Positions 11,461 through 63,900 of a stretch of 64,000 nucleotides of DNA are shown one piece after another (position 1 is the first letter of the stretch; the number at the start of each line of letters is the position of its first letter). The DNA lies in assembly GCA_026419785.1 (NCBI GenBank), contig JAODTK010005132.1, positions 147,001 to 211,000 of the forward strand. The letters are read 5' to 3'. The DNA is from Sclerodactyla briareus. Its lineage: Eukaryota > Echinodermata > Holothuroidea > Dendrochirotida > Sclerodactylidae. The position numbers and the translations under genes were made by a program. The notes under the pieces are model-generated. The model searched no databases. It had not been told where the DNA came from and was given only the letters and a program-made list of their open reading frames with translations.

Positions 11461-11464
11461 TCCA

Positions 11465-14764: not shown

Positions 14765-15495
14765 GGTGCAATGGGCCAGTCAAGGCCCCCTCAAGGTCTA
14801 TAATATACTAGTGATATATAAATACTGAAAGTTCGACTCTTCTGCCATTGACTAACACTTAAGCAGTCTAGTGTTACGGATTCAAACTCTAATTATGACC
14901 TTATTCCACCATATTTGGCGGAAACAGTGTCACTCACCTGGAGGATAGTGTTTAGAATCAGCTTGCAGTATTTTCCTTCAAAACTCGTCATAGTATTGAT
15001 GTGTGGGTGAATTTTTCTGGTCTCAAGCCATCTCAGTGTCCAGTGAAAGTCAACGTATGGCACGATCTCGTTAACCAGAAAACAGCCTGCAGCCGGCTAA
15101 ATTAGGAAGGCACAAAAATGCTGAATTGTCTATAAATCCTGCACCGTGATTGGTCAATGATGATTGCGGATATGCTCACAATAAAAAATAAACAGATTGT
15201 GTCATACTTTGACTTTCGATGGACACCGAGATGTCTTGAGACCAGAAAATTCACTCAAACGCCAAGACTGTGACGAGTTTCGAAGAAAAAAAACTACTGC
15301 AGACGCGGATTTACACGACACAGATCTTGCCAGGTGGGCAAACTTTTTCCTCCATAGATGGTGGAATAAGCTCATAATTCGAGTTTGAATCGGATAATCG
15401 CATGCTGCTTAACTGTTGGTCAATGTGGTGCAGAAGAGTCGAACCTTTCAGTATTTATATACTATAGAACGTGAGGGGCCTGTGGGGCAGTCATC
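14765..15495. mobile_element. Long foldback (inverted-repeat) element
   Basis: The left arm (about 14765-15085) and right arm (about 15195-15495) are near-complementary: for example TATAAATACTGAAAGTTCGA and CTCTTCTGC at 14817 against GCAGAAGAG..TTTCAGTATTTATA at 15431-15460, TTATTCCACCAT at 14901 against ATGGTGGAATAA at 15358, and TTCTGGTCTCAAG at 15015 against CTTGAGACCAGAA at 15235. Arms are about 300 bp with a spacer of about 110 bp. No transposase frame is present. It resembles a foldback/MITE element; the outer ends are uncertain. Confidence 0.8.
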
Positions 15496-48200: not shown

Positions 48201-51200
48201 TAGGAAATCCTGTTCAAATTGTTGAGTAATATGCAAATTGCCTGTTTTGGCCTTTAAACACGCATGCTTTGATGGATGTTGACCAAACTTGGACAGAATT
48301 TTCATTGAACTTTCACCACTCAAAGGTCATGGTCAAAGGTCTTTAAAGGAGCCTAAACTGCAAAATATATCTCCTACAAATAAAGTTCGATTTTCGCGAT
48401 GCTCATTCAGTGTTATCATGACTAGTGGTTTCTTCGGGGTGTTCAGGAATTTCAGGTCAGAGGTCATTAAAGGACATAATAGGAAATCCTGTTCAAATTG
48501 TTGAGTAATATGCAAATTGCCTGTTTTGGCCTTTAAACACGCATGCTTTGATGGATCTTAACCACACTTGTCACAGAATTTTCATTTCAGTGACTTTTCA
48601 CCAACTCAAAGGTCAGGGTCAAAGGTCATTAAAGGAGCCTAAACTGCAAAATATATCTCCTACAAATAAAGTTCGATTTTCGCGATGCTCATTCAGTGTT
48701 ATCATTGACTAGTGGTTTCTTCGGGGTTTTTCAGAATTTCAGGTCAGAGGTCGTTAAAGGACATAATAGGAAATCCTGTTCAAATTGTTGAGTAATATGC
48801 AAATTGCCTGTTTTGGCCTTTAAACACGCATGCTTTGATGGATGTTTACCAAAGTTAGACTCAATGTTCATCGACTGCTGGGTGACCTTTGACCTCTTGA
48901 AGGTAAAAGTCCAAGGTCATTAAAGAAGCCTAATGGGCTATTGTGTTAAAATGCAAAATGATCTCCTGTTATAAATCAAGGTGGATTTCAAGATGCTCGT
49001 TCACTGTTGTCATAGACTAGTAGACCTTGGTGTGTTTCAAAATGTCAGGTCAGAGGTCATTAAAGGGACATTATAGCAAACTCTGTTAAATTGTAATAAA
49101 CACATTGCAAAAAATACAAAGTTTTGTTTGGCCCTTAAAAGAGTTCATGTGCTTGACTGGATTGTAGCAAAAGTTGGACCCAAGGTTCACGACCCGGCTG
49201 ACCGTCACCCACTTGATGGTCAAGGTCAAAGGTCATCAAAGGAGCCAAATGGGCACTGTATGGAAATTTTGCAAAATGTTTCCTACAGATCAAATTTGAT
49301 TGTTTCGTTCTTGGTCAGTGTATCATTGACTTGTGGTATCTTCGGGGTGTTATAGAATTTCAGTTCAGAGGTCATTAAAGGGGGGCACATAATTGGCAAT
49401 CTATTCAAATATAAGTCATTTGCAAATTGCATCCATCCACATTTTGTCTTTTTGGCTCCCAATTGTTCCCTCTTTGACGGGATGGTGGTCGACTTGGAAA
49501 ACAATGTTCAATTGACCTGCTGGTGCATCATTGGCCCCGTAAGGGGAGGTCAAAGTCACTAAATGGGGATAACAGGTGTGGAAACTGAAGAATGCTACTT
49601 CTTCAGATCAATTTGTATTCTCACGATGTCTGGTCAGTGTTATCATGACTAGTTAGTCCCTTCAGCTTGTTTGGTAATTTCAGGTAAAAGGTCTTAAGAG
49701 GGCCTAATGTTTTTTTCTGACGCCTAACTAATCATGCTTTGATGGATATTGTCCAAAGTTTAAATTGACCTATGTTATGCTTTGTGCAAAAACTAGACAC
49801 ATAATTGTTACATTTGTGCAGTTTGAGCTACAACACCATTGGTCTTGTTGACATTTCCCCTTCAAAAACAATCTTGCCTATGAGAGCATTCCTTTCAATG
49901 GGGTGCAAGGCCCCCTCAGTGCTGTGAGATTTGCGCAGACGAGGCGGAGGAGGGTGTAACGTGACTTGTTGACAGGGCATCAAAGGTGGGGGGCAATGCT
50001 CCCACTGATGCAAACATTTCCACACAGTAATTCTTTGAAAATGTGGTTGTATCCCCCCACACCCCCCTCACACCCCCTGACACCTCAACACACAACACCC
50101 CCCCCCCACAAACACTTTGGAGGAAGTTCATGCTTGTTGCACTTGCACTGTAAATGCAGTGTTTAACATGTTTATTTTACAATAGGCATGTAACTGCACA
50201 CTATCCCCTTATTTGTGTAACATTCCTCCATTTATTGAGACTCTCCAAGATTTAGTTTGACTTTTGTGGTGTGTGTCGCAGGACTCTTGGCATTTTATAC
50301 CTAACAGAAGGCTGGCTTCAGTCGTTGCTCCCTCTGCTCACTAGTGCCGAGCCCACACTATATTGTTGCAATCCTTTCATGCTCTCGTTCGTCGACGCAC
50401 CATCTGGTGTTGTCTTTATTCATTGTGTCCCCAGGGCTCCCAGGGGAGCGAAGCACTGCATGCTTCCTACACTTTTTAGTAACGATCCACTTTACAAAGT
50501 ACCCACTTTTGCATGTGGGTAGCGTGAGACAATCAAGGAGACATGCTTGTCTAAAAAACACTGCAGAGAAAACCCTTTGGGCCTATCCTACAGTCAAAAT
50601 CACATTTGCTTGATTAAGCACTCAGCTCTTCCAACTGAGCTAATTTGCCGCCTGGTATATATATTATAGGAATATCTTAAAGCTGTCATTCCATTCCCGG
50701 GGTGATAATTATCAATTGATCTTTGATTTGATTTTTCAGTGGGCTCTATTGACAGAGGTGACCTGGAAGCAGAGAGTCAAGAGGAGTACACCCAAGGCTG
50801 TTATAGACTAAGCTGATTGACCCCAAGAGACCTGTCCTTCGAACACGCTAATCTACGACCCAGAAGAGGACATGGCTAAACTGGAGCAGGCCCGCAAACA
50901 ATTGGTTGCCACTGGCTCTGCTGAGGTAAAAACTATGCCTGTTGGATGAGGGGGTATACCCGATGTTCCAGGGTCTGATGTTCCCGAGGTTCGATGTTCC
51001 CGGGGTTCGATGTTCCCCCTTTTCAGGTGTCATTAAAACTTATACAAAAAACAGGGAACATCGAGCCCCGGAAACATAGCACCCTGGGAACATCGGACCT
51101 TAGGAACATCTAACTCCGGGAACGTCGAACCTTGGGAACATCAAACCTCGGGAACGTCTAACCCCGGGAACATTGACATAGCCCCTAGATGAAAACCCAA

Positions 51201-54200
51201 GTTCCAAGTGGTTAGCACAGTTGGTAGAGCGTCCGCTTTCCACCGGTAGGCCGGGATCAGAAGCCCGGTCGGGTAATACCAAAGACATTGAATATGGTAC
51301 CTGTTGCCCTTCTCGCTTGGCGCTCAGCAGGAGGGGATAGGAAACAGGGCAAAAAGTGGGGAAGGCATCTGTGAATTTAGTGGACTGTCGCGTGAAGTAC
51401 CCCCTCCTTCACATTAAGTTACCGCAAAAGAGGCATCGCCTTGTTCCGTGTACCTGGTGCAGGTTCCGCCGTGACTATTCGGCCATAATCCAGGTCCGCA
51501 CCCGGGCCGGGCCTGTATAGGTAGGGTCTTTGTCCGGCAAGTGATGAGTAAAAAAAAAAAAAAAAAAAAAAAGTCCTGGGGATTAGTGTCTGTGAAGGAA
51601 CAATCATCTATCTCTCTCTAAGGTGCTGTAATTGCATGATTACTTATTTGAGCAATGATTCGAGAGAAGAACTAAGTGACATATATTGAAGACATGCGTC
51701 TGTTTCATCTGTGTGATATGAGAATGGTTTTGTAATAGCATCCACATTCAAAATTCTCACTTGAAGTTCCATTCAGCCTTTATATCATGGCCTTGTAGGA
51801 CATAATTTCACATATTTTTCACCATTTTTATATGATAGAATCTAGAAATACTGTTTGGTAGGCGTGGATCATTTTATGGTTTGTTTAACTTAGGAAAAGA
51901 AAGAAAAGCTGACTGCGCAAGTAGCATTCATTTTTGTATTTGACAGAGAAATTGGGACTTACATAAATCAAACTTTTTAGTATTCTTTTTTTCTTGGGAG
52001 TATTTTTTATGTTTTGTGTAGTGTGGTGGATATTGGGTAAATCAGTATAGGAGATAAAGAGCCTCAACGGGAGTCAATAAAGTTCACGTTCAGGGTGTGT
52101 AGACTTGAGAAATATGAGAGCCGGGCATTCTGCATCTGCGTTTGTTTCAAAATTAGTGACGGGATAGTGTAGTGTGGGATGTGCGTCGGGTCATGACTGT
52201 GGCCCAAGTCGGAACGGAGAGGCCATATTGTGACATCATAATCGGTTTTAACATCGTGGACCACTATATTCGTGCATTGTACAGTATATTCAGCACATTT
52301 TTTCAGTGCCAGGTGGCTGGCTCTATTTTTTTGAGTACTGGGCACACTACCCAACTGCCAGATGGTCTCGCCCTCTGCCGCCCATGGTAGCTACTCCTGT
52401 TCATGTTATCAGTATTTGCTTCACTCCATGACAGCTGGCATCTATGAAAACCTTCAGGGTAACCGGGGTTATCATGTGACCTTGGTGAAGAAGCTAAACC
52501 AGGTTATACTGTCTCCATAAATTGTCACTTTTTAATGTTTACCAAGAGATTTTGTATATTTTTCATAGCGCATCTAGAGGGGGTCCTGCATTACTGATTG
52601 ATCTGCCGGGGTGGGGATGTCACTGAAATGGAGAAGAATCGTATTGACTGTATCATAAATGAAGCAAGCGATGTGGTCAGAGAGTTTCGACAGTCTGTTG
52701 ACTAAATTACCATTGCCTTGTTGAGTCCAAACGTGACACCATTTGGACTGACACAAGACATCTTTTGACCGACCTTCTACGAGACAGGACAAAACAGAGG
52801 GCATGGAAGGTTAAGACTCCCTTGTCCTAAAATGAACAGGCATCGCAATTCATTCGTTCCGTGTAATAAAACTTTATAATGATAGATTAGTGCGTTAATT
52901 TCTTGTTGTTTCATATTCGGAGTATTATCTGTATATAATATTTCGATAAGTGTTTATTCATTATTCTGTATCCATAAGTGCAAATACCTAAATTTTCAAT
53001 GAAGTTTCACCTGACCTTACCTCATCTTGAGAAGCTTCCAAACCGTTCATTCCAGTTCCTCCCCTTCTGTTCCTGTCATTCAGGCTACCAAGGAGAGCGA
53101 GTTCATCAAGAAGGCCAAGGAAGGCATGGGGTTGGACGAGGGTACCTTTGGGGTCGAGATGCAGCAAGGACAAACCTTACCTCTGGGCAGACAAGTACAG
53201 GCCCAGGAAGCCCAGGTACTTCAACAGGGTACACACGGTGAGTAGATTTCTCTCAAGATCTGCTAGAATAATAAATGAGTGGTGGGAGGGGGGGGGTGGA
53301 GGTATGGCGAGTGGTATTGGGAGTGTAATGAATAAAATATTACTCTGTTTGACACTGTCTCCTGGTCCAGATGAAACTAGATGGCAAAAATCTCTTGCCC
53401 TGGCAAAGAAATGGAGACACCAATGCTGGGAATCTTTTCCTGACTTAATCCTCTTGATTCCTAACATGGTCCCCTCTTCCCCCCATTATGCAAAGAACAC
53501 TAGGCCATAATGTGTTGTGTGTGACTGTTAATGTTAGGCTGTGACTCAATGAGATCAAGCCAATATAATTTCAGACTGGCCTAGTGAATAGGTATTATCG
53601 TCAGATTATTAATGATAATGATTTCGATTTTTATAGCACCTTAATATGTGGCAACCACATCTCAAAGTGCTTCACAATCATTACCACTGCTCATTGGTAA
53701 CTTTTCACACCCACAACCCTTGCTGTTCGTTACCTGGGCACACTGAACAGTAATGCCACATCATCGTGTCCCCTGGCGGCCTTCCCATAGGTGCAGCCGA
53801 CATACAGCGCAATGCTATTGATTTACCTCCAGGGTACTCCATTTACAACCTGGGTGGAGTGAAGCAATTGAGATAAAGCACCTTGATCGAGGGTACAACG
53901 TGGACTCGAACCCACAACCACTGGGTTACGAGCTTGACGCCTTAGCCAATTAGGCCACCACGCTCTCATTCATATTCTTCAGAGTCAATTTCCTCCAACA
54001 TTCTGAACTGCTCTCCCTACTTGATATCCTTCTCTCTGTTGTTCAAGCCTGTCTGTTATTAGGGTTCTATCTGCCAGTGACAGATTACTATATTTGTGCT
54101 TGTTCCTCTAGCTTCAGTGGATTACCATTCTGAGTCAAATTAAGGGCACGATATTTTGGAGAAAAAAATTCTCTGGAATGCTGTACCATCAGCACATCTC

Positions 54201-57200
54201 ATTTAGTTAGCTGTGAACCCCCAAACAGGAAGGTTGCCCTACCAGTTGGTGCACAGTGTTAAAATAATTTCTAAACCGAAAGTATCTCTAGGATTGTTAA
54301 AAATTACACTTTCATGGCCTTTCAACAAGGATGAAGTAGATGACAACACTTGAGCTGAGTACAGGTAAAAGAACAGTTTTCTTTTCTACTTCTTGATGTT
54401 TTGGAAGATTGGGTCATTTCGTGAAAATATGCCAGAATGTTTCTCCTCCTACAGTTTGTAGGATTTATCAGAGACTAATGCTACATATGGGGTGTTCAGA
54501 TATTCAATGGGTTACCAAGAGGTAATTTTGGCCAAAATGGTCATTTAAGAGTCATATTATAAACAGAATGATTCTTCTTCCTCATATTGAATTATAGGAT
54601 GTTCAGGAGTTTGAGGTCGGAGGTCATCTGGGGTAAAGTTTGACAATTCTGTATGACTCGTCAAGCAGATTCTACTCTTTTAGAAGAGATCCGATGATCA
54701 ATGAAAATTATTCAGTATGTCATTGACCAATGGTACTTATGGAGTGTTCATGAATTTAAGATCAAAGGTCATCTAGAGGTCAATTCCAGCTATTTTGATT
54801 AAACAGTCCAGTGGACTTTTATGCTACAGAATGGATTGGATGATCAAGAAAGTTGGTCAGCATTATTAGCGACCAATATTACATATAAAGTTATTCATGA
54901 ATCCGAGGTCAAATGTAATCGCCAGAATCAATTTCCGCTATCTTGCTCAAATGGTCAAGCGGCTTTACTCCTACAGAATAGATCGAATGTTCAAGAAAGC
55001 TGATTGATATGGTTAAAAATAAATTGACTACTAAGAGTAAATAGCTACTGTGCTATTGGCACTCTCTGTTCATTTTAAGGCTCAGTGAGGGTTAAAGGCA
55101 GGTCAACGTAGACATGCAAGGTCCAACACACCGGCATTCGTTAAGGTGCGGCTGAAGTGCATGTTTTACTTGTTCCAATGATTATTTAAGCCCAATGTGA
55201 TGGATTTATATCCAGTTTTAGCTAGTCCCAAAACCCTGCAGAACTACTCCCATAATATCCAGTTTTAGCTAGTCTAAACCCTGCCAGAACTACTCCCATA
55301 ATATCCAGTTTTAGCTAGTCCAAACCCTGCAGAACTCCTCCCATAATATCCAGTTTTAGCTAGTCCAAACCCTGCAGAACTCCTCCCATAATATCCAGTT
55401 TTAGCTAGTCCAAACCCTGCAGAACTGCTCCCATAATATCCAGTTTTGCTTGTCCAAACCCTGCAAAAACTACTCCCATAATATCCAGTTTTAGCTAGTC
55501 CAAACCCTGCAGAACTACTCCCATAAATCCAGTTTTAGCTAGTCTAAACCCTGCAGAACTACTCCCATAAATCCAGTTTTAGCTAGTCCAAACACTGCAG
55601 AACTACTCCCATAATATCCAGTTTTAGCTAGTCTAAACCCTGCAGAACTACTCCATAATATCCAGTTTTAGCTAGTCCAAACCCTGCAGAACTACTCCCA
55701 TAATATCCAGTTTTAGCTAGTCTAAACCCTGCAGAACTACTCCCATACATGATGTATTGTGTTAACGGAATGAGAATTGTTCCATATTTATCTTTTTACA
55801 GGGGTTCGAGTGGAACAAGTACAATCAAACTCACTATGACATGGATAACCCTCCTCCAAAAGTGGTCCAGGGGTACAAGTTCAATGTGAGTACACTGTTA
55901 TTACCATCTGAAATAAGGTTCCTTTAGGAGGAAAGGGCATTTCAAAGACAACATTGGCATTCCTCTGCCATTCTTTGATTCATTGATTGAATACATCACT
56001 ATCTTCAAAATACCTTCCACTAGGAGGGAAGGGTAGATTCAAGGACAACATTGGCCTCATCTGCCATTTTCAGTTTTTATTCATTGAATGGCAAACTTCA
56101 TAATGTCAAAGTAATCAAATTTTGTCCCAAAAATGTTGAGACTGTTGAGACTATGAGTTCATCACTCCGATACTAATTTGCTCCCCTTCAGCCCTGAACC
56201 TATGCAGTCATGTGTATATGTGTGATACTCGGCTTGTAAACAGGTCTGGGGCCTGTTTCATAAAGGTCATCGCAAAGCTATCGCTAAGCAGTCATCCATT
56301 GCAACCAGCAATGGCGATGGATTTGCAGTTTCACAAAGCCCATCGCCTATAACGATGAAAAAAATAAAAAGATAGTACAGTGGACGAGGCTATCGTCAAA
56401 ACATATATCTCCACACTCCCTGTCACAAAGCTCTCTGAAACTGAACAATGGCATCTACATCATCAACAGTTTTGACGCAAAAGAAGGTAAGTAGGCTGTT
56501 CAAAGAAATGTCAATGAGTCAAATTTGTGTCTCAAAATCATCAGCTGAAATTGGAAACTCCAGTGGAAGATAGTCTAAGAATTTTGTATTAATGCCAGAA
56601 ATATGTGACTTAGTGGTTAAGGTGTAGAAGTCTCCAGTGGCGTAACATCTGAGCGCACAAATATCTGCAAAAAAATATGTAGTTTAAAAATGTAGTTACA
56701 ACCAAGTAGACCTATGTAGACTACGTGTTACCCCAAATAATCTGACATTACAAATCAAGCCTAACCCAATGTAATATATAATTTTCATGATATCGTTCCT
56801 CTCGCAGTATAAGAATTTCGTGTGAATGCCAGAAATATGTGACTTAGTGGTTAAGGTGTAGAAGTCTCCAGTGGCGTAACATCTGAGCGCAACAATATCT
56901 GCACTCCGGAGAGCTATGGCGTGGAATGGTGCAACAGGCTTTATTTTTAAGTAGGTCAATAACCTTCATAACGCCATTACGTGTCAACCGGTAGTATATT
57001 TATGCATATCCGGAGTAGGAATCTAACGGATTCTGACGATCTCGAAAAACTCGCACCCTCCGTAAAGCCCTCGCATTACAAATATACAACAAAATCGCTG
57101 CCATGCAAACTGGCGGATTTTAGTATACTAGTAGCCAAACCAGAAAAAAACAGCTGATGGTTATGCCTAGGAATGCCTTAAATTTGGTAGGGGCTTAGTT

Positions 57201-59854
57201 CATGTTAATAGCGCGCGACGTGGAATGGCGCAAAATCAGCATGTGACCACTAAATTAGCGATAAATTGAACTTAACGATGGATCTATCCATGTTTGCAAC
57301 TATACTCAAAGCGCTCGCTAAATAATGATCGCTCGCTAACAGTTAGCGATGCAGAATCCATTGCAAATGCTTAGTGAAATCGTTCAAAAAATCCATCGCT
57401 AGTTCGCGATGGATTTCCAGTTTTGCGATGATATCGCCATTAGCGATGATCGTTGAGCGTTAGTGAAACAGGCCCCTGGATTGAGGAAGACCCACTCTCC
57501 ATAATGTGTACATATTCCCTTTTTGTTATGATGTCAGATCAGATTTCTGTTCTTTCTGTCTCACCTGAACAAAGTCGTGTATGAAAGTTGTGTGCACGTG
57601 TGTGTATGTATGTGTGTCACGCTTGTCCCTTAGCAGCATTCCTTCAAAACTGTTTAGACCAGATTTTTTTTGTATGTGATATTAGGTTTGGGTGAATACA
57701 ATATGAGTAGATTTTGGGCACTCGTTAGATAATTAACCTATTATATTAATTTGATTGTTTGGGCTCATTATCAGGATTAAATACAAACCATAGGTGCTAT
57801 GATGATGTTGTTTGGCATGTAGGTAAAGGATATTATGGTGGCTGAACTGATTAGGTTCCAGCCTGGAATATGTTCATTAGTGGTTCTACTTGCATTTTTA
57901 TGTGAAATTTTGAAGTTTTGTCATATTTTCACAAAACTTGTTTGGATATGGTCCGCCTCAGATGAGAAATTTCAACATGAATTCTGGGTCACTTGAACTC
58001 ATCAATATGTTTTTAATTAGCATGATTTCTGCCATTTCGAAAGTTTCGTCTGATTTTCACAAAACTTGGGTGATGTTGTCCAGCTTTGGTCTGAAATATT
58101 ACAACAGACAGTTAGAGAATGCATAATTATAGGTCAATTCAAGGTCTAATGGCATAAATTTATGCATTTTATTCCAGTCACATTCTCACAAAACTTGGTA
58201 GACTAATAAACATTCAGCCCCACTAAATTGAAATGAAAGGTGGACTGTTTACTGGTTAGTGTCATTCATATGTGAAGGGCTTAGGGTCTGACAAACAGCC
58301 ATCTCTGTGATTGCTTTAGATTCTGCTGTTATTATTTGCTGACTGGCAATTGGCTCTCTGTCGTCTTCTGGGATTGAAAAGTTGAAACATACTCAATTCC
58401 TTCTTACTCTGACGAAGCATCCACTGACCTGAACAAGACCACCATTTTGAGAATCCACCTGTTCTAGGCTATTCTCCAATTGTCAGTTATTATTTTTTCT
58501 GTCCATAGAATTGTAGCTGGAAAAAACACCACTCCATATCTCAACTTTCAACTTGTGGTCTATCTTTCACAATCATATTTTGTGTTTTCATTGTCCCTAT
58601 CATATTTTCAGATATTTATCCAGCATGATGACAAGAGGAAGACTCCAGAGTACAGTTTGTCTCCGAGCCCAGACAACAAAGACTTTGCCATATTGAAGTT
58701 CAATGCTGGTCCTCCTTATGAGGTGAGTTCAATCATTATTTTATAATCAGTGCTTATATGCATGACATCTATTCACTGGACGCAAAGGTTACTTGAGTAT
58801 TCAACCGTACCCATGCTATCATGACCAATACTCCCTGCTATCGTGGCCAGTACCCCTACTGTCAGCCCTAGACCCCAACTCCATCACGAGTACCTTACAA
58901 ATCATCCAAAATACTTCTACATCAGCACTACTCCAACTATCATCACTACTACCCCTACTATCACCACCAGTACTCCCCTGCTATCATCACCAGTACCCCT
59001 TCCTATCACCCCAGTACCCCTACTATAACCACTAGTACCCCAACTGTTACCACCAGTATTTTTGCCACTAGTACTCTTACTGTCATCACCAGTACCCCTC
59101 GCTGTCATGATTAGTACCCCTATTATCACCCAGTCCCTCTTGCTATCACCACCAGTACTCCCCTGCTATCATGACCAGTACCCCTACTATCACCACCAGT
59201 AGCCCAACTGTCACTACTAGTTCCTCCACAAATTCCTCGCACTAGTACTCTCACTGTCATCACCAGTACCCCTTGCTATTATGATCCCTATTATCACCAC
59301 CAGTCCCTCCTGGCTATCATGACCAGTACCCTGACTATCACTACTGGTACTCCAACCGTCGCCACTAGTACCCTTACTATTACCATCGGTACCCCAAATG
59401 TCGCCACCAGGGGCACTTTTATATTACCACCGGTACCCCCCCAACCATCGCACTGGTACCGTACTATGGGATTTACCAGTACCCCCCTGGCTATCATGAC
59501 CAGTACCCCCCCTGCTTCAATGACTAGGGGTTTGCAAACAAAAAAAAGGTTTTTCACATTCATGCGCATGTGGAATCTTCACCTCAGTTCTACAATATTA
59601 TGGAAGCTCCCAAATTTCACATCGCGAAATATCAGCGACAGTTGTATGTATATAGCATGCGCAAAACACTTACGTATAATCCCTGAGCCATATACACAAT
59701 GGAAATATCACTATTCTTTCCCCAGGACCTTGCCTTCAAGATAGTGAACCGTGAATGGGAGCTGTCCCATAGGCATGGCTTCCGGTGTCCAGTTTCAAGC
59801 ACCAGCATCTTCCAGCTGTGGTTCAGGTTCAAGAGGTATCGCTACCGAAGGTGA
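27070..59854 (+). CDS. CACTIN: CACTIN (cactin), whole gene span, 17 exons recognised, 5' end missing
   Basis: Cactin is a nuclear protein of the spliceosome. In flies it binds the IkB protein Cactus and affects Toll/NF-kB output; in mammals it is needed for efficient splicing of selected transcripts. Reading exon by exon gives, in family order, an RS-rich start, a Lys/Glu-rich helical part, the middle region (FHLDQAKLRS, PIDLLAR, ITTITEDELAKLK, SLLQQL, HMARAR), an acidic linker, and the highly conserved C-terminal domain (YLWADKYRPRKPR, EWNKYNQTHYD, DNKDFAIL, REWELSHRHGFR, FKRYRYRR-stop). The recognised coding length is about 1,980 bases (about 660 codons); human cactin is about 758 residues, so N-terminal coding sequence is missing. 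Introns are long and repeat-filled. Several exons carry frame changes, so this is either an unpolished functional gene or a decaying one. Family identity is very secure. Confidence 0.93.
27351..27632. mobile_element. hAT MITE (282 bp) with 8-bp TSD, CACTIN intron
   Basis: The ends are CAGGCGCGTACC on the left and, reverse-complemented, CAGTGGCGTACC on the right. The octamer CTCATGAG flanks it directly (27343-27350 and 27633-27640). CAGTGGCGTAC-type termini plus an 8-bp duplication are diagnostic of hAT. It is internally noncoding and contains GGGG/CCCC runs next to the ends. It sits about 110 bases after the donor of exon 1. Confidence 0.9.
28020..28540 (+). repeat. Tandem repeat, about 115-120-bp unit, three copies
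   Basis: GATGATTTCATGA (28183, 28304) and GATGAGTTCATGA (28418) begin units reading TATTGCTCTTGGGG, TCTGGTCAAAGGTCATAC, AATGATATCCTCC and AGTCAAGGAATCACT. The last phrase resembles the family-1 end GTCAAGGAATC. Intron of CACTIN. Confidence 0.8.
29474..29602 (+). CDS. CACTIN: CACTIN exon 2: basic helical segment
   Basis: The exon begins after TTTGGCAAG and ends at the donor GTAAGT (29603). The first base completes the codon left by exon 1, and the reading continues KQRRLIKA, then after a frame change RMRKKEAKDRKRKEK, then after another one MGW. Human cactin has the equivalent order: a basic helix, a KKEAKERKKREK-like run and MGWGEEYMG. The 128 bases after the completing base are two more than a multiple of three, although the next exon starts in phase 0, which agrees with a net missing base near 29573. 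A tRNA-derived SINE begins only about 25 bases after the donor. Confidence 0.8.
29626..29945 (+). mobile_element. tRNA-derived SINE, copy 1, CACTIN intron
   Basis: The order of blocks matches the inverted copy at 53620-53972: GAGCATGGTGGCCTCATTG (A-box region), a degraded B box, CTTCCACCCAGGTTGTGAA, TGTGTGCCAGGTGCGAA, GATGAGCAGTAGTAATGATT and CAAGTGCTTTGAGATG. The head is decayed compared with the other copy. It starts about 25 bases after the exon 2 donor. Confidence 0.75.
30346..30414 (+). CDS. CACTIN: CACTIN exon 3: DNPFGD motif
   Basis: The acceptor TTCACCAG and donor GTGAGA border 69 bases, exactly 23 codons. The reading is G-stop-TNEDNPFGD, then VWQK, matching the conserved GYTN-DNPFGD...F-W-K block of cactin. 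The second codon is TAA where the family has tyrosine (TAC/TAT), a one-base difference. The segment between DNPFGD and VWQK reads differently from the expected NLLGTF, which suggests compensating small indels. Homology is clear from DNPFGD, its position and the phase. Confidence 0.8.
30908..34600 (-). mobile_element. Near full-length LINE (Jockey/CR1 group), minus strand, in CACTIN intron
   Basis: On the plus strand a poly(T) block at 30908-30941 marks the 3' poly(A) tail. On the minus strand, reading from about 34400: an N-terminal part (RCRPASDVAEARTPGGGGSA), an endonuclease part with IFILGDFNV (about 33440) and SGLGLLCSNWLDRLSHYSAP (about 33300), then reverse transcriptase pieces KANTFAELFSSNSTMNTDAH (about 32650), LYRLCYTMGCYPSVWEHAHV (about 32380), and the thumb region FPYLGWGCAILSQCLDRIQR (about 31400). 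Frame changes are numerous, so it is not active as written. Its insertion enlarges the exon 3-4 intron. The 5' border is approximate. Confidence 0.83.
34601..35241. other. CACTIN intron remainder, nothing recognised
   Basis: Two loosely similar phrases (TTTTGCTGAGATAACGGCGA at 34801 and TTTTGCTGAGGTAATGGCAA at 35142) suggest an old duplication. No gene or transposon end seen. Confidence 0.4.
35242..35319 (+). CDS. CACTIN: CACTIN exon 4 (probable): NEQLG...QQIENR
   Basis: TTCTATTAACAG precedes and GTAAGTG follows 78 bases (26 codons, phase 0 to 0). This frame opens KNEQLG and closes QQIENR, directly before exon 5 (LELQKVKQ). The family has a less conserved LEKKG...EDNR helix here. The middle carries a TAG; another frame reads VTTEIRRMGK across it, which resembles the expected charged helix. 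Position, phase, length and the closing residues support the call; sequence similarity is weaker than for other exons. The exon lies just beyond the LINE inserted at 30908-34600. Confidence 0.6.
35975..36176 (+). mobile_element. SINE 3' part, diverged copy of the 51203-51572 element
   Basis: CCCCCTCCTTCAC, GTGTACATATACCTGGTGAAGG, TCGCAGCTGACTA, GAGGTCTGCAC and GGCAAGTACCTCATGA follow the same order as CCCCCTCCTTCAC, GTGTACCTGGTGCAGG, GCCGTGACTA, CAGGTCCGCAC and GGCAAGTGATGAG in the other copy. It ends in TATATATAAAAAAAA. The tRNA-like head is absent. Confidence 0.65.
37231..37303 (+). CDS. CACTIN: CACTIN exon 5: LELQKVKQRRLERE helix
   Basis: The acceptor is TTTCCACTGACAG and the donor GTGAGT at 37304. 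The reading LELQKVKQRRLEREREREEK is almost identical to the human LELQKVKQLRLEREREK, a charged single-helix or coiled-coil stretch. The length is 73, one more than a multiple of three, and both flanking exons are in phase 0. Removing one G from the GGG at 37290-37292 would restore the frame into exon 6, so this looks like a homopolymer error or a single-base insertion. Confidence 0.9.
38514..38576 (+). CDS. CACTIN: CACTIN exon 6: EADYFKEWERQED
   Basis: The acceptor is CATAATTTCAG and the donor GTAAGA. The 63 bases are 21 clean codons starting EELQRSREADYFKEWERQED, matching human LEMLQREKEAEHFKTWEEQED. No frame problem is present. It ends the long charged helix before the Cactin middle domain. 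Confidence 0.93.
38925..39004. repeat. Perfect 38-bp inverted repeat (hairpin), 4-base loop
   Basis: The arms 38925-38962 and 38967-39004 are exact reverse complements (CCTGGCCAGCTGCAGTTGGA... and its mirror) around the loop ATGG. A further single copy of CATGCCTGGCCAG occurs at 39099. The plus-strand frame 38676-39185 runs through it but resembles no protein. Intron between exons 6 and 7. Confidence 0.95.
39440..39495 (+). CDS. CACTIN: CACTIN exon 7: FHLDQAKLRS, start of Cactin middle region
   Basis: After TTGTTAACAG the exon reads FHLDQAKLRS, matching the human FHLQQAKLRSKIRI. The next codons drift (NDSKKDG) where the family has KIRIKDGRAK, and a TGA stands where CGA (Arg) is expected at 39491. 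The donor is GTAAGT at 39496. At least one small indel and one C-to-T change at a CpG-type arginine codon separate it from an intact exon. Confidence 0.88.
39885..40118 (+). other. Unassigned 77-codon frame in CACTIN intron
   Basis: The frame reads MFALGGTAVQAALALLSGQG then GVGSLSPAVWATVEQSVLQA and ends in a basic RWSRRAQSSKK tail. It has a folded-protein look (amphipathic, no low complexity) and is preceded by GCACTAG, a possible acceptor. No family was recognised. It could be a transposon fragment, a skipped exon or chance. Confidence 0.2.
40140..40600. repeat. Probable interspersed repeat of unknown class
   Basis: The stretch is unlike the surrounding A/T-rich intron: it holds TTTTACGTCCCATCCAAAAG and CCTCCGAACCTGGAGG, phrases of a kind common in retroposon bodies of marine invertebrates. 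No second copy is present in the window to define borders. Confidence 0.35.
40740..40842 (+). CDS. CACTIN: CACTIN exon 8: PIDLLAR ... IEMQEPY
   Basis: The acceptor is TTGTTTTAACCAG and the donor GTGAGT at 40843. Three frames carry family residues in order: AKKPIDLLAR, then MEDDLS, then IEMQEPYNTH. Human cactin has AKPIDLLAKYISAEDDDLAVEMHEPY in this place. Two frame changes (near 40785 and 40803) are needed. The order of matches and the flanking splice sites make the homology certain although the exon cannot be read through as it stands. Confidence 0.88.
41170..41390 (-). mobile_element. tRNA-derived SINE (probable), next to exon 9
   Basis: On the minus strand a tRNA-like head has GTGGTCGTTGGACCAGAG (A-box region) and GAGTTCAATTCCTAGG, which matches the B-box consensus GTTCAANNC, followed by a body without coding potential. 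It lies immediately upstream of the exon 9 acceptor. Confidence 0.45.
41402..41545 (+). CDS. CACTIN: CACTIN exon 9: GLTIR ... ITTITEDELAKLK
   Basis: The acceptor is TTTTTCTGACAG. The exon begins GLTIR, shows QVYLEM in the same frame, then NKDNLEYCRDITTITEDELA in another frame, continuing KLK. This matches human GLTVADMEDLLEDIQVYMELEQGKNADFWRDMTTITEDEISKLRKLE. At least two frame changes occur around 41425-41465, and a TAG follows KLKT. The 3' border is uncertain: GTCAAG at 41546 is a weak donor chosen because it leads to exon 10 after a KLKT-DR-like end. Confidence 0.85.
43027..43330 (+). repeat. AGGTCA-rich satellite (family A), single unit
   Basis: It starts TTAGCTCAAACCA, then GATGGATGGACCAAACCTGG, ATGTTCATCAACC and CGTCAAGGTCAAAAGTCA, matching the unit order of the clusters at 23375 and 47870. 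Confidence 0.65.
43580..43721 (+). CDS. CACTIN: CACTIN exon 10: DRREGITP ... VFKGK-like
   Basis: After CCTTGTTACAG the exon reads VAQDRREGITP, then in a shifted frame SVSHEVAGIFQGK, then SQLVALKNQ in a third frame. The human order is ERREGVNASVSSDVQSVFKGKTYNQLQVIFQGIEGKIR. The donor is GTAGGG after GATATG. At least three frame changes are needed, more than in any other exon. The next conserved residues (GYWE) are in exon 11. Confidence 0.85.
44050..44700 (+). repeat. Interspersed repeat family C, copy 1
   Basis: It shares with 57540-58260: TCTCGCCTGAA, GTGTGTGTGTGCGTCACACTT, TAGCTCATTAGCAAGATACGATG, CCGTAGGTGCTATAG, AATTTGAAAGTTTGTCGGAT and TTTCACGAA. Noncoding. Intron between exons 10 and 11. 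Confidence 0.7.
44701..45754. other. CACTIN intron, nothing recognised
   Basis: A 136-codon frame at 44816-45226 (plus) opens MGRIALFMMLVKQQYSHLMG; I recognise no domain in it, and it lies in repeat-rich intron. Confidence 0.35.
45755..45862 (+). CDS. CACTIN: CACTIN exon 11: YW-SLLQQL-HMARAR
   Basis: The acceptor is CCTGTCACCAAG and the donor GTAGGC at 45863. The exon shows TAC TGG (YW) and, one base out of frame, SLLQQLSSHMARARSRKDTR; the family reads GYWESLLQQLRAHMARARLRERHQ. A further frame contains RHQGT near 45810, matching RHQD. At least two small indels are implied. The segment is part of the conserved middle domain. Confidence 0.88.
46812..46989 (+). CDS. CACTIN: CACTIN exon 12: QGVE...LFP and acidic linker
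   Basis: After CCACTTGCAG one frame stays open for the whole 178 bases: QGVEAAALFPSVIPSTSEGQ, then an acidic, low-complexity part (KKEEEDVDPDEEPRDPSEEK, PDLEEPVAM). The donor is GTAAGT at 46990. The human equivalent is QGVESEPLFPILK followed by a long Pro/Ser/Glu/Gly-rich acidic linker. No frame change is needed, and the phase-1 end joins exon 13 to give M-GSIDRGDLE. Linker length and composition vary between species. Confidence 0.88.
47870..49745 (+). repeat. AGGTCA-rich satellite (family A), cluster 3, about 280-bp units
   Basis: It begins CTAGCTCAAACCAGC...GCTGGTTGAGCTA, which can fold, and then TTGATGGATG recurs at 47991, 48269, 48548 and 48835 (spacing 278, 279, 287). Units contain AAAGGTCATGGTCAA(A)GGTC, ATATATCTCCTACAAA, GTTATCATGACTAGTGGT, GGTGTTCAGGAATTTCAGG and AGGTCAGAGGTCATTAAAGG. 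The first three units are nearly identical; later ones diverge. Intron between exons 12 and 13. Confidence 0.92.
50585..50660 (-). other. tRNA-like fragment (A box only)
   Basis: On the minus strand, ATTAGCTCAGTTGGAAGAGC is a perfect tRNA 5' half with an A box, followed by CTTAATCAAGC. No B box (GGTTCRANNCC) and no acceptor-stem partner follow, so it is a fossil or a decayed SINE head, not a working tRNA gene. Confidence 0.4.
50740..50925 (+). CDS. CACTIN: CACTIN exon 13: DLE...YDPEEDMAKLEQARKQL
   Basis: The acceptor is GATTTTTCAG and the donor GTAAAA at 50926. The exon starts in phase with exon 12 (GSIDRGDLEAESQEEYTQGC), then passes through frames reading KLIDP and DLSFEHANL, and ends cleanly LIYDPEEDMAKLEQARKQLV then ATGSAE. 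Human cactin has EEDLIQQSLDDYDAGRYSPRLL...LEPDEDLQRLQLSRQQLQVTG. At least two frame changes lie between about 50805 and 50855. A minisatellite with inverted halves starts about 35 bases after the donor. Confidence 0.88.
50958..51178. repeat. Minisatellite with two opposed halves (GTTCGATGTTCCCGGG)
   Basis: 50958-51022 has about four copies of a 16-17-bp unit like GGGGTTCGATGTTCCC; 51050-51176 has about seven copies of its reverse complement (GGGAACATCGAACCC-like), with about 28 bases between. The halves can pair with each other. It begins about 35 bases after the exon 13 donor. Confidence 0.88.
51203..51572 (+). mobile_element. tRNA-derived SINE with poly(A) tail
   Basis: The head GTGGTTAGCACAGTTGGTAG contains an A box (TAGCACAGTTGG), and GGGATCAGAAGCCCGG stands in the B-box place but is degraded. 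A body of about 270 bases follows with TGTACCTGGTGCAGG, CCGCACCCGGGCCGGGCC and TAGGGTCTTTGTCCGGCAAG, then 23 A at 51550-51572. A diverged copy is at 35975-36176. Confidence 0.8.
51573..53083. other. CACTIN intron, nothing recognised
   Basis: Frames at 52064-52390 and 52574-52804 were read and show no domain. The sequence is A/T-rich without clear repeat borders. Confidence 0.4.
53084..53237 (+). CDS. CACTIN: CACTIN exon 14: KAKEGMG ... YLWADKYRPRKPR
   Basis: The acceptor is TTCCTGTCATTCAG and the donor GTGAGT. The first half reads ATKESEFIKKAKEGMGLDEG then TFGVEM; the second, one base out of frame, reads KDKPYLWADKYRPRKPRYFN then RVHT. Both halves are near-identical to the family. The length is 154 where 153 is expected, so a single extra base near 53162 explains the break. 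This begins the C-terminal CactinC domain, which mediates Cactus/IkB contact in flies. Confidence 0.95.
53620..53972 (-). mobile_element. tRNA-derived SINE, copy 2, intact promoter head
   Basis: On the minus strand the head reads GAGCGTGGTGGCCTAATTGG (A box TGGCCTAATTGG) and GTGGGTTCGAGTCCACG (B box GGTTCGAGTCC, perfect). The body matches 29626-29945 (CTTCACTCCACCCAGGTTG, TGCCCAGGTAACGAACAGC, GAGCAGTGGTAATGATTGTG, AGCACTTTGAGATGTGG). It ends TTAAGGTGCTATAAAAATCG and an ATCATT-rich 3' end. Confidence 0.85.
54140..55060 (+). repeat. Diverged family A satellite units
   Basis: GGTGTTCAGATATTCAATGG, GATGTTCAGGAGTTTGAGGT then CGGAGGTCATC, GTCATTGACCAATGGTACTT, AGTGTTCATGAATTTAAGAT and AAAGGTCATCTAGAGGTCAA recur at roughly 130-150 bases, a more diverged form of the family A theme. 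Confidence 0.65.
55206..55748 (+). repeat. 45-bp minisatellite, 12 copies
   Basis: Unit: ATATCCAGTTTTAGCTAGTC then CAAACCCTGCAGAACTACTC and CCATA. Twelve copies of CCAGTTTTRG/CCAGTTTTGC are countable, differing by single changes (AGTCCA/AGTCTA, CTACTC/CTCCTC). It ends about 55 bases before exon 15 and therefore overlaps the likely branch-point neighbourhood. Confidence 0.97.
55802..55885 (+). CDS. CACTIN: CACTIN exon 15: GFEWNKYNQTHYD
   Basis: The acceptor is TCTTTTTACAG and the donor GTGAGT. The 84 bases are 28 clean codons beginning GFEWNKYNQTHYDMDNPPPK and ending VVQGYKFN, nearly identical to human cactin. The exon joins exons 14 and 16 in phase 0. A 45-bp minisatellite ends only about 55 bases upstream of the acceptor. 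Confidence 0.97.
56248..57476. mobile_element. Harbinger-like DNA transposon remnant, non-autonomous
   Basis: The ends GGGGCCTGTTTCA (56248) and TGAAACAGGCCCC (57464-57476) are a perfect 13-bp inverted repeat, and subterminal ATCGC/GCGAT words are frequent on both sides. On the minus strand ADIVALRCYATGDFYTLTTK (about 56900-56840) resembles the start of PIF/Harbinger transposases (ALR-YATG-FY). An approximately 80-bp piece containing it is duplicated directly (56590-56666 and 56824-56904). No target duplication could be confirmed. Confidence 0.65.
57540..58260 (+). repeat. Interspersed repeat family C, copy 2
   Basis: It shares with 44050-44700: TCTCACCTGAACAAAG, GTGTGTATGTATGTGTGTCA then CGCTTG, GGGCTCATTATCAGGATTAA, CCATAGGTGCTATGATG, TGTGAAATTTTGAAGTTTTG and TTTCACAAAACTTG, the last motif three times. 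Confidence 0.7.
58612..58722 (+). CDS. CACTIN: CACTIN exon 16: DKRKTPEYSL ... AGPPYE
   Basis: The acceptor is CATATTTTCAG and the donor GTGAGT. The 111 bases are 37 clean codons including DDKRKTPEYSL, PDNKDFAILKFNAGPPYE; human has DKRSTPEYFLEACADNKDFAILRFHAGPPYE. No frame change. The first residues IFIQH correspond to human IFYPDL. Confidence 0.97.
58800..59515 (+). repeat. About 21-bp minisatellite (CCAGTACCCCTACTATCACC)n
   Basis: More than 25 degenerate units of the type CCAGTACCCC-TACTATCACCA fill most of the intron between exons 16 and 17. Because the unit is near 21 bases, frames remain open for long stretches on both strands (STPTITT-like on plus, GVLVVIVGV-like on minus); these are not genes. 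Confidence 0.92.
59726..59854 (+). CDS. CACTIN: CACTIN exon 17: last coding exon, stop TGA
   Basis: The acceptor is TTTCCCCAG. The exon reads DLAFKIVNREWELSHRHGFR, CPVSSTSIFQLWFRFKRYRY, RR, then TGA at 59852-59854. The invariant end of the cactin family, FQLW-FKRYRYRR, is intact. Decayed tandem copies of this exon follow immediately in the 3' region. Confidence 0.97.
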   Translation, partial: DLAFKIVNREWELSHRHGFRCPVSSTSIFQLWFRFKRYRYRR

Positions 59855-59931
59855 AGCTGCCATCTCTATTCAGTGGGAATCGGGAACATTGATGCTGTCA
59901 TGGTAATACATGCTGCTCTCATGACTCACTC

Positions 59932-60560
59932 AAGATTGTAAACCAGGAGTTGTTAATACGGGTGTGACTCCCGATCTTCCAGCTGTGGCATTAGTTCAAG
60001 AGGTGTCCTACTAAGGTGAAGCTTCATCTAAACACGGACTGTTGAGTTGATGACTCGGGTACTGCTCCAAGATTGCGAACCGTGAGTTGTCTCTCTCCGG
60101 CATGGATTCCAGGGTCAGTTCAACAGCAGCTTTTGCAGCTGTAGCACTGATTTAGGGAGTCTAACTACCGAAGGTGAAGCTGTCATCTCTAATAGAAAGA
60201 AGAACTGTTGATGTTGATGACTCGGGTAGTGCTCAAGATAGCGGACCCTGAGTTGTCTGGTGTCAGTTCCGAACAGCCTTTCCCAGCTGTGGTCCAAGTT
60301 TGAGCATTGTCACTAACAACCGATGCTGCCTTCTTCATTCAATTGCCAGGAACGTGACCATCGATGTTGTCACGGTAATACAGCTATCACTGCCTCAGGT
60401 ACTCGTTTGAGACTGTTAGTTATCAAAGAGATATGGTTTTTGGTGTCAATCCATTTATGGCTCAGGTTTAGGAGGTATCGCTGTCAGCAGTGAAGCTGCT
60501 ATCTCCATTCATTGGTAACATGATCTTGGATGTGGTCACAACAATACCATTCACAGTGGC
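59932..60560 (+). repeat. Four degenerate tandem copies of CACTIN exon 17 and its 3' flank
   Basis: The segment beginning AAGATAGTGAACCGTGA in exon 17 (59738) recurs as AAGATTGTAAACC (59932), AAGATTGCGAACCGTGAG (60069), AAGATAGCGGACCCTGAG (60235) and a weak copy at 60409. Each copy goes on to a version of CAGCTGTGG..TCAAGAGG...CTACCGAAGGTGAAGCTG..ATCTC and GATGCTGTCATGGTAAT. Unit lengths are about 194, 137, 166 and 174 bases. None keeps an open frame. They lie in what should be the 3' UTR and probably arose by old tandem duplication of the last exon plus flank. Confidence 0.85.
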
Positions 60561-60898
60561 TACAAATGCTCCTCCGAAAATGTGTCATTACAACAGAATC
60601 TCCTAGCTATGGTTTGAGTATTGCTATGGGAGTTCAGAGAGGGATACCGGTAGTATTTTGGGGCTGAATCATACCTGGAGGTATCCTCTGTCCTTCAAAA
60701 GACTGTGGCAGAACCAATTGGGAAGAAGCTGATAAAAGAGCTTTTGTAAAAAATAGATGTGTCAGTCCAAACCCAACCTTTATACAATTTTCCATGACAG
60801 AACAAGAGGCCTCCATATTTTTTGCATGTGTCATGTACAAGATAGAAAAGCCTCCCATCATGCAATTATAAATTATGTTTCTTTGCACAACCCTGCAC

Positions 60899-60904
60899 AA
60901 TAAA
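60899..60904 (+). promoter_or_regulatory. Candidate CACTIN polyadenylation signal AATAAA
   Basis: This is the first AATAAA I found after the CACTIN stop codon, about 1,045 bases downstream, in CACAATAAAATTG. A second lies at about 60990. The intervening 3' region contains the exon-17 copies. Assignment rests on the hexamer alone. Confidence 0.35.
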
Positions 60905-63900
60905 ATTGACATGGTAGCTTCACTTTGAAAATATTTCAGTTCATGAGGTTATGAGAGGGAATTGCTGTAGTGGTGTGGTAGTTGTGGTAATAAAAAAGAA
61001 AGAACGGAAGAACGTCTGTTGATTTATTTAACACAATGTAACAGAATACAGTGATATTCTCTGTATTATTCAACTGTGACATCTACATTCCTTGTAGGAA
61101 CATTAAAGACTAAAGAGAAAATGATTGAGATTATTAGAGATGGGGATCTGAGGAAACTGGAAAACCAGCCACATCACAGTTTTTTTCTTATTCCCCCCTC
61201 TCCTTTCGGCCTCGTTGCAATTGCTGCTGCCAGGGCCCAACCAGAAAACCTAGAAAAGGTGTTTTGACAAATAGCTTTGTGATTGTTTTTCCTTTTTGTT
61301 CATTGAATGTCATTTTCTGACTTGTGTAAAACTCAGTGAAGTGATTGGAGAGAGTGAAAGAAAATATTAAAGAAGGGGATAAAAAAAATATGGCCCCTGC
61401 AATACTCCTCTACCTGCCCCTCTCCCCTCATACTCGTCTCGTGCTGCCAGAGGGGGTCTGTTGCAAAATATTGGATGGATCATGACTTTCCAATCCATTC
61501 AATAATATCACCTCCCTCCTCCTGTCTTGACCAATAACCCTAATCCACCATGTTGCCTACTGCTGGATTCTATTACTTTACTGAATGCAGGCTCTGCTTT
61601 CATTTTAGCATCACCAAGGATCAGATCAACCTATCAAAATTTTCCAAGCTAAAAATAAGACGAATCACTCACAGGATTAATAAAGGGTACTTGCTTAATA
61701 AGGGGACTTGCTCCAGTTCTACTCTACCTGCAATCTAGGAATATGCTCACAAACAGGCCAAGCTCTGGCGAGTTCAACTCACCCTGCTCTTCAAATGCGA
61801 ATCAAATCCGAGCCAACCAATTGACCAATATTTCATGACAAATAGGACCAAATTTATTACCACAGATGCATTTCTTCTTCAAAACTCACACATGGCTGAG
61901 TTTAAACGGTCCTAAACATGTGAAAGATGCACCACCCAAGGAACATCCCATATATTCATTCTGCAATCAATCAGAGCGGGTGCTTTAGAGAGTTTAACTG
62001 GGGACCCTTGTTTATTTTTCGTTTGCGTGTAATTTTTTAAACTGGACTAACCATTTTGCGTGTGATGCCCATGATGGGCTGGCCTCAGGCCCAAACTGGG
62101 CCTCAATCCAAACATTCCGAGAACCCTTAAGATGGCTATTAGAACTGTCATTATACCAAACATCAGCACGGACCGTGCATCAAAATTTGTAGAAACATTT
62201 TGCTGATACATGATGGGCCTAGTGCACATTGGGCCTGCAGCCAAAAGCTCGCAAACACCCCCTGGACCACTACCTAAGCATTGCATTTAATAACTAAAAA
62301 AATCAATTGGAAACTTGTGGGAGGAAATTCATTTCAAGTACCAAATGGACCTTTGGTTGGAAAATTCCTGAGCAATGCACCCAAAGGTACGTCTGTTAGA
62401 CCATCTTTATATATTGGTAGCCAATTATCTTGCCGTGTGGTAGCCGTCCAGGCCAGCAGCAGGATTCTTGACAGAGATGTTGTATTTCGATAGGTCAACA
62501 ACAATAAGTTGTCGAAGAAGACGATCCATAAATCTTTCCCGTTATTCTTGAAACAAAAATCCAAAAACTGAAGTGTGTGAACAGAAATAAATATGCGAGA
62601 ACACAAAAGAAGTCCGGAAAGTAAAACCGCAGCTGTCCAGATCAAAATTACTTGCTGATAGCTAAACTTGACGGAGTAAATCAATTGCTGGCAAGCGACA
62701 AGCGTTTCTCCAAATGATGTGTAAACTGAAGTGATAGGAATAACTGATATGAAAACGGCAAATACTATGAAACTAAAACTAACCCAAAGGTGATAAAATG
62801 AGTGGATAATGCATCCAGGGCAATATGCCTATTACATAATTTGATAACTCAAACAACACCTGTTCCTGGTATTACGTATTGCACTGATGTAAACGGTTCT
62901 AGAGTTAGACTGATAATCATGCGTCTCCCTGAGCTAAAAACCTTATATAACCAATTACCAAAATAAAGGCCCTAAGCACAAAAACCCACTTGACCCATAT
63001 AGGAAAACAACCATTGAGAGTAAGGAATTTCAACCAAGCAAGTCCAAAGAATCCCAAATACTCTCCCAGCCCAACCAATGAGATAAGCCTGGAGAAACAT
63101 AACAAACCCCAGATGTTTTCACTCTTACCCCGGTCCGTCCTAACCATACCCTATAAGAACACGCACAAGGAAACAGCTTAAGTCTGCACGACGAGACACT
63201 GGCTAAACTGTAAACCGTCTCTGGTAATCACCAAGTCCGATTGCCAAGGGGCACAGGGATTACTAGGCCACTAGATCCAATACATAGACAACCCCAGCAG
63301 CCAGGCTTGGCAAGCACCATATGAGCACATAACAATATAGGAGCCAGTAACAATGTTTGCGGATCAGCGGAGTCACCTAGACTGGTGATCCTGAGGAGCA
63401 CAAGCAACTTCATTCATATTGACTTCCAACAACCCTCCTCTCTGCGACTGTGCCCGCACAATGTGCCCTCACATGATGAAACCCACTGCAAAAACCCTCA
63501 ACACGTATTACCAAGAATGAAACATTGCAAATGGCATTGTAAAAACCAAGAATTATTAAACTAATTGGCAGTACAGAATAAATTAGAGGGAAAAATTGCA
63601 AACGAACTGATATGAAACGTACTCTATGAAAAGTGTAGGTATTCAGAAAATTAAATAGCGTGTGAATGTATGAATATTGCAGATAGACTGGCAAGTTTGA
63701 TTCAATTTGCAATTTCCACAACTTAGCAAGTCATTGCAGAGCGAGCCTCGTAGTGAACGATCCCTTTCGATCAAATTTTACAAGGAGATTCCAACAGTCT
63801 CTTCTCCTATTCCAATGTCCAATAAAAGAGTCACCCGTTCGAATACATACGGTATTCCATAGATAACCTTCTGTCCAGTCTTGGAAATGTCTCCCTACAT

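Follow-up and report, generated by a model that had tools for sequence, protein, structure and literature searches.

We confirmed that the last CACTIN exon is followed by decayed tandem copies of itself. In the 64-kb window, i.e., the whole stretch of DNA that was analyzed, this array consists of five related units, which are the exon and, downstream, four degenerate copies of the exon plus its 3' flank (Table 1). The unit anchors at 59737, 59931, 60068, 60234, and 60408 gave copy offsets of 194, 331, 497, and 671, the same as those in the initial annotation, and pairwise identity among the five units was 52-70%. The flank is indeed part of the repeat, as annotated, but the copied unit begins about 7-11 nt inside the exon and not at the splice site.

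Table 1. Features of the CACTIN 3' region.
Feature	Position	Strand	Remarks
Penultimate CACTIN coding exon	58612..58722	+	Phase 0 end; donor read as GAG|GTGAGT
Last CACTIN coding exon, master unit (u1)	59726..59854	+	Stop TGA 59852-59854; acceptor TTCTTTCCCCAG|GAC
3' flank, part of duplicated unit	59855..59930	+	Recognizable in copies 4, 5; shortened in 2, 3
Degenerate copy 2, exon + flank	59931..60067	+	Score 31; nhmmer E 1.4e-29 at 59926-60067
Degenerate copy 3, exon + flank	60068..60233	+	Score 52; nhmmer E 1.2e-41; blastn 4.8e-11 to exon
Degenerate copy 4, exon + flank	60234..60407	+	Score 41 (60234-60396); nhmmer E 4.1e-39 at 60231-60392
Degenerate copy 5	60408..60560	+	Score 41 (60397-60560); nhmmer E 6.9e-35 at 60403-60558
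Possible sixth fragment, nearly erased	60583..60619	+	nhmmer E 0.3; doubtful
Hypothetical alternative last exon	60350..60493	+	Acceptor-like CAG|GAA, phase 0, 47-codon open frame to a stop
First canonical polyA signal after stop codon, AATAAA	60899..60904	+	

Identity of the Exon and Support for the Copies

The last exon encodes the CACTIN C-terminus: it matched the final 41 residues of human Cactin (E 7e-18) and positions 85-125 of the 125 in Pfam CactinC_cactus (E 3.1e-12). The penultimate exon matched positions 52-84 of this family (E 1.3e-5) with 25.6 bits, under the Pfam whole-protein cut-off of 30, and the two exons joined, which are the CACTIN exons verified here, aligned with human Cactin 687-758.

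Gapped local alignment of 59726-59930 with copies 2-5 gave the scores listed in Table 1, against means of 8.7-9.4 for dinucleotide-preserving shuffles (1000 each), and no copy's score was equalled by any of its 1000 shuffles. Two controls, 60726-60890 and 59560-59725, showed background similarity (872/1000 and 892/1000 shuffles as good). Directly after the array, control stretch 60561-60725 scored 14, matched by 8/1000 shuffles, and was therefore regarded as a doubtful sixth fragment; against the best of the five units, 53 of 2000 shuffles were as good. When the window was searched by nhmmer with a five-unit profile, only those five units passed the inclusion threshold, a result that is partly circular because the profile was built from them. 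Among pieces of at least 60 bp with E no higher than 1e-6, self-comparison by blastn paired the exon with copies 3 and 5 (3.0e-7 for the latter) and linked the stretch of copies 2/3 to that of copies 3/4 (9.3e-14); the pairs of exon with copy 2 and with copy 4 were absent at these limits.

Decay of the Copies and Proposed Effects

The initial annotation, whose interpretation as a whole was partly supported, held that every copy keeps the core and that none has an open frame. The former was too broad, as only copies 2 and 4 had an exact CAGCTGTGG and only copy 3 an exact CTACCGAAGGTGAAGCTG. The conserved EWELS codons were gapped in all four copies, and no significant overall third-codon-position excess was found among mismatches. 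The core frame was interrupted in three of the four, with stops well within the core in copies 2 and 3 and just three codons ahead of the exon's stop position in copy 4, but in copy 5 the exon's frame is open over the last 14 codons to the homologous stop at 60491-60493, within a longer open run of 58 codons (60317-60493).

It had been proposed that the array could provide alternative last exons, affect the choice of 3' end, or favour unequal crossing-over. Exon start plus intron end was undetectable upstream of copies 2, 3, and 4 (matched by 465, 822, and 761 shuffles per 1000), and upstream of copy 5 there was a faint hint of a homologous 3' splice site (82/1000). The hypothetical exon in which copy 5 lies, in phase with the penultimate exon and ending WLRFRRYRCQQ-stop, is the sole exception to the lack of support for alternative last exons, and is weak, post hoc, and unproven. 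Neither AATAAA nor ATTAAA occurs between 59855 and 60898, which leaves altered 3'-end choice unsupported; the location of the array inside the predicted 3' UTR was supported. Folding of the region was no better than that of shuffles. Unit identity of 52-70% is too low to favour recombination, and present-day crossing-over is unsupported. The unit start inside the exon, the EWELS gaps, and the lack of third-position excess, early polyA signal, and special folding, together with many other tandem arrays in the window, therefore leave all three effects unsupported.

Origin of the Array

The view that such an arrangement is unusual was overstated, given these other arrays and PMC9013439, in which tandem exon duplications of human, fly, and worm genes are described as abundant in coding parts and in UTRs as well. 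In the best reading, an old tandem duplication would have started inside the last CACTIN exon, the array would have expanded while non-coding, and the copies would then have decayed; unequal exchange or slippage probably built it. The array looks like ordinary tandem-duplication debris past the stop codon of a normal splicing gene, and not like a new genetic device.

Results

The last CACTIN exon is followed by four decayed copies of itself

The last CACTIN coding exon consists of 42 codons and TGA. Its product aligned with the C-terminal 41 residues of human Cactin (E = 7e-18) and covered positions 85-125 of the 125 of the Pfam domain CactinC_cactus, while positions 52-84 were covered by the penultimate exon. 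When the two exons were joined, a continuous alignment to human Cactin 687-758 was obtained, and because of this continuity with the human protein and the domain, the end of the gene, judged on these two exons, looks ordinary and intact. The same sequence comparison, with the human C-terminus and the Pfam domain, identified the source of the copies as a genuine CACTIN exon. Elsewhere in the window, the open reading frame at 46767-47096 was tried as a CACTIN exon and discarded, having no match in Pfam or PDB at E up to 0.01, and the stretch 53031-53243 gave a weak match to CactinC_cactus (E = 0.0096) that fell under the cut-off. Scans of viral and prokaryote contigs for CACTIN relatives returned 3 and 83 pattern matches, respectively, and 0 were confirmed.

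Downstream of the CACTIN stop codon, the exon and its 3' flank recur four times, head to tail and in degenerate form; these copies are numbered 2 to 5, with the exon and flank as unit 1 (Table). None of 1000 dinucleotide-preserving shuffles reached the local alignment score of any of the four. This bore out the proposal of the initial annotation that a decayed tandem array of the last CACTIN exon is present here, and the self-comparison yielded repeats, well over shuffles, at the offsets that it had predicted. Some of the similarities were also seen by blastn self-comparison, with E values of 9.3e-14 to 3.0e-7: the exon matched copies 3 and 5, and the stretch of copies 2/3 matched that of copies 3/4. 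The pairs of the exon with copies 2 and 4 were absent from this comparison, which used pieces of at least 60 bp and E up to 1e-6. Two of three control stretches stayed at background, and the third, 60561-60725 directly after the array, was raised (score 14, 8/1000 shuffles). A possible sixth remnant within this stretch is doubtful. When the stretch 59700-60600 was used as a DNA query against the 319-Mb assembly, one matching place, itself, was found among the best candidates scored; no copy of the array elsewhere in the genome was retrieved by this query, in which common words are skipped and decayed copies could be missed.

Table. Features at the end of CACTIN and tandem arrays of the window (offsets are from the anchor at 59737; scores are from local alignment with the exon unit)
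Feature	Position	Strand	Remarks
Array, 295-bp unit	23594-24432
Array, ~279-bp units	47989-48871		93% matches (TRF); more diverged similarity to 49430
Array, twelve 45-bp units	55208-55747		94% matches; upstream of the last two CACTIN exons
Penultimate CACTIN exon	58612-58722	+	phase-0 end
Last CACTIN coding exon	59726-59854	+	with 3' flank to 59930, unit 1
Copy 2	59931-60067	+	start approximate; offset 194; score 31
Copy 3	60068-60233	+	start approximate; offset 331; score 52
Copy 4	60234-60407	+	start approximate; offset 497; score 41
Copy 5	60408-60560	+	start approximate; offset 671; score 41
Hypothetical alternative last exon	60350-60493	+	acceptor-like site and core of copy 5
Possible sixth remnant	60583-60619	+	nhmmer E 0.3; 53/2000 shuffles as good for 60561-60725
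AATAAA	60899-60904

That the similarity within the array might be due to chance or to an assembly artefact is hardly credible. Chance was ruled out by the shuffles and the profile search, and the copies are only 52-68% identical to each other, and therefore too unlike to have arisen by the mis-joining of reads from a single sequence.

The copies decayed behind a probably constrained exon

In three MAFFT alignments, the codons for EWELS were gapped in all four copies, with a gap that varied by copy and aligner from 4 nt upwards. As human Cactin has EWEYS at the position of the exon's EWELS, the exon was taken as the ancestral form; we infer that the copies may share a single deletion and descend from one already broken copy. 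Moreover, copies 2 and 3 have a common end sequence, 95% identical over 22 nt.

Across the aligned part of the exon, identity was 0.68-0.73 between exon and copies and 0.56-0.68 between copies. The difference was clear in the core, where all three alignments gave 0.74-0.75 for exon-to-copy and 0.62-0.64 for copy-to-copy comparisons; it was a small excess in the 5' part (0.64-0.67 versus 0.59-0.64) and mixed in the flank (0.54-0.63 versus 0.48-0.62). In the local alignment, mismatches at codon positions 1, 2, and 3 were 32/122, 41/123, and 44/130, and the overall excess at third positions was not significant against the other two (p = 0.48 with local and 0.25 with global alignment). First positions were mismatched somewhat less (0.24-0.27) than second and third ones (0.33-0.36) in all three alignments. 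This pattern of identities and mismatches fits one constrained master exon and free non-coding copies. An open frame through to the homologous stop was found in copy 5 only: in copies 2 and 3, stops fell well inside the core frame, and in copy 4 this frame had a stop three codons before the position of the exon's own.

The 3' splice site was probably not duplicated

Homology between the copies and the last coding exon sets in about 7-11 nt downstream of the exon start, with a CAAGAT-like sequence. The stretches upstream of this start were alike in two of the six copy pairs, copies 2 and 5 (score 25) and copies 3 and 4 (score 31), each with 0/1000 shuffles as good, while 41 to 223 of 1000 shuffles were as good for the remaining four pairs. 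Homology to the intron end and exon start was not detectable before copies 2, 3, and 4 (465, 822, and 761 of 1000 shuffles as good, respectively), and copy 5 showed a faint resemblance (82/1000). Since homology to the acceptor region was undetectable, the duplicated unit probably ran from within the exon to the 3' flank and left out the 3' splice site, even if a copied acceptor could in principle have been erased by decay. Thus, probably no copy inherited a 3' splice site of its own, and the acceptor-like site at 60350, before copy 5, would be of other origin. It is chiefly this probable lack of a 3' splice site in the unit that speaks against alternative last exons, which the initial annotation had considered; as a general property of the array they are not supported, given that no copied acceptor was detectable before copies 2-4 and the core frame was interrupted in three of the four copies.

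Copy 5 called for a separate judgment, as its last 14 codons are open in the exon's frame to the homologous stop, inside a 58-codon open stretch. The acceptor-like site preceding it (CAG/GAA) has 15 pyrimidines in 20 positions against 14 at the real acceptor; by this count, a crude gauge of acceptor strength, it ties for the top among the AGs in 59600-60930, and unlike the other site with 15 it is a CAG without a close upstream AG, although 60113 is also a CAG, with 14. The site is in phase with the end of the penultimate exon and would open a 47-codon exon ending at the homologous stop. Copy 5 would then have been brought back into use, by way of a new acceptor, as an alternative terminal CACTIN exon, the donor after 58722 being spliced at times to 60350, to give the C-terminus WLRFRRYRCQQ or a different 3' UTR. 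When 60234-60445 was shuffled with the core kept, such a site arose in 76, 145, and 311 of 5000 shuffles at cut-offs of 15, 14, and 13 pyrimidines, respectively. However, we did not count the site as significant, because there were four copies to choose from and the criteria were set after it had been seen, in the sole copy with a core open to the end. Moreover, it sits in the flank of copy 4 and nothing links it by descent to the real acceptor, the conserved residues FKIVNREWE...HRHGFRC would be missing from the product, and the changes in the last 14 codons are spread about evenly over the three codon positions (4, 4, and 5 by visual count). With one aligner, copy 5 had raised mismatches at third positions (15/30 versus 14/56, p = 0.03), but with another it did not (13/30 versus 15/56, p = 0.15). 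Collectively, these data make the use of copy 5 as a terminal exon highly improbable.

The array is predicted to lie within the 3' UTR

Neither AATAAA nor ATTAAA, the two motifs searched, occurs between the stop codon and 60899, and the first canonical polyadenylation signal lies past the array; the copies are therefore predicted to fall within a 3' UTR that is ~1.05 kb long. As no copy carries either motif, the altered choice of 3' end suggested earlier was rejected. The position of the array, wholly upstream of the first canonical signal, would suit a 3' UTR regulatory element acting through RNA structure, binding sites, or decay-triggering cryptic splicing, e.g., in self-regulation of a splicing factor. 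In line with this, the donor-like AAG/GTGAAG formed by the Arg-Arg-stop codons of CACTIN (59848-59856) recurs exactly in copies 2 and 3 (60013 and 60171); however, it is missing in copies 4 and 5 and is a by-product of those codons. RNA structure in the array was rejected, since folding was no better than in shuffled sequences (z = 0.24, 11/20 as good) and no Rfam family reached the gathering score in the window. The copy-to-copy identity of the core was not clearly above that of the 5' part or the flank, and therefore no element stands out as conserved. We regard a regulatory role as highly improbable.

Tandem duplication is common in the window

Many other tandem arrays were found in the window, several of them much less diverged than the CACTIN array (Table), and tandem duplication is thus common here. 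Pieces related to the array of ~279-bp units were found at 24860-25053 and 25287-25371. Most of the intron preceding the last CACTIN exon is occupied, at 58808-59524, by decayed arrays with units of ~21 bp (TACCCCTACTATCACCACCAG-like). A motif family with scattered and tandem copies was observed at 8672-11835, where two copies about 87 bp apart, at 8817-8981, have one frame open through both. In addition, a 98-bp direct repeat (94% identical, 234 bp start to start) was located at 56572-56903, and an inverted repeat with arms of 254 and 268 bp (78.5% identical, 125 bp spacer) at 14815-15461, which is possibly a decayed hairpin-type mobile element.

Discussion

The array is very probably an old partial tandem duplication of the CACTIN gene end that expanded while non-coding and decayed neutrally in the 3' UTR. 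A segment that began about 7-11 nt into the last exon and extended at least some 75 nt beyond the stop codon would have been duplicated head to tail. The downstream copy would have been redundant from the outset, as it lay behind the stop codon at which translation ends and would have lacked a 3' splice site. Frame-breaking indels would then have hit this redundant copy, and unequal exchange or slippage would have raised the already non-coding sequence to four, perhaps five, copies. These would have decayed neutrally within the 3' UTR, while the functional exon would have remained constrained at the protein level. What we infer here is the mechanism of exchange, the succession of events, the neutrality, and the transcription of the array as part of the 3' UTR, neutral decay being judged on the sequence of one species. 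Against a reading as pure debris, copy 5 retains a short stretch of open frame downstream of an acceptor-like site, which debris would not require. The lower mismatch rate at first codon positions and, with one of two aligners, the raised third-position mismatches of copy 5 also count against it.

Minisatellites or VNTRs of 3' UTRs are head-to-tail arrays as well, and the CACTIN array resembles them in its arrangement, with units of about 137-194 nt in a predicted 3' UTR, but its unit includes coding sequence and a stop codon; the copies are so diverged that present-day length variation is unlikely. Pseudoexons or exon relics are sequences with recognizable exon homology, no inherited splice site, and mostly no working frame, located in introns. 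The CACTIN copies likewise have recognizable exon homology, no detectable inherited splice site, and mostly broken frames, but they lie in the gene's own 3' region. All four are homologous to an exon of the gene in which they lie and follow it head to tail, and they thus conform to a tandem exon duplication. According to PMC9013439, such duplications are abundant in the coding parts and UTRs of human, fly, and worm genes, and the CACTIN array shares with them the homologous exon copies placed head to tail in one gene, here in its 3' region. The UTR cases highlighted there (Drosophila pip, hydra) are, by contrast, spliced, mutually exclusive exons (PMC9013439), unlike the CACTIN copies, before which no copied acceptor was detectable and three of which have a broken core frame. 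In view of that report, and tandem duplication being common in the window, the CACTIN array is a decayed tandem exon duplication, a kind already known. Among the literature matches listed, no title or abstract opening mentions the array seen here in CACTIN.

For annotation, gene finders that use protein similarity could call the copies as extra CACTIN exons. For the gene itself, the array offers a clear case of partial exon duplication in which, judging by homology, the splice site was missed and the copies therefore decayed harmlessly downstream of the stop codon. The array would gain importance only if copy 5 were spliced in; out of the remains of its own exon, a core splicing factor would in that case have acquired a second C-terminus and 3' UTR specific to the lineage.
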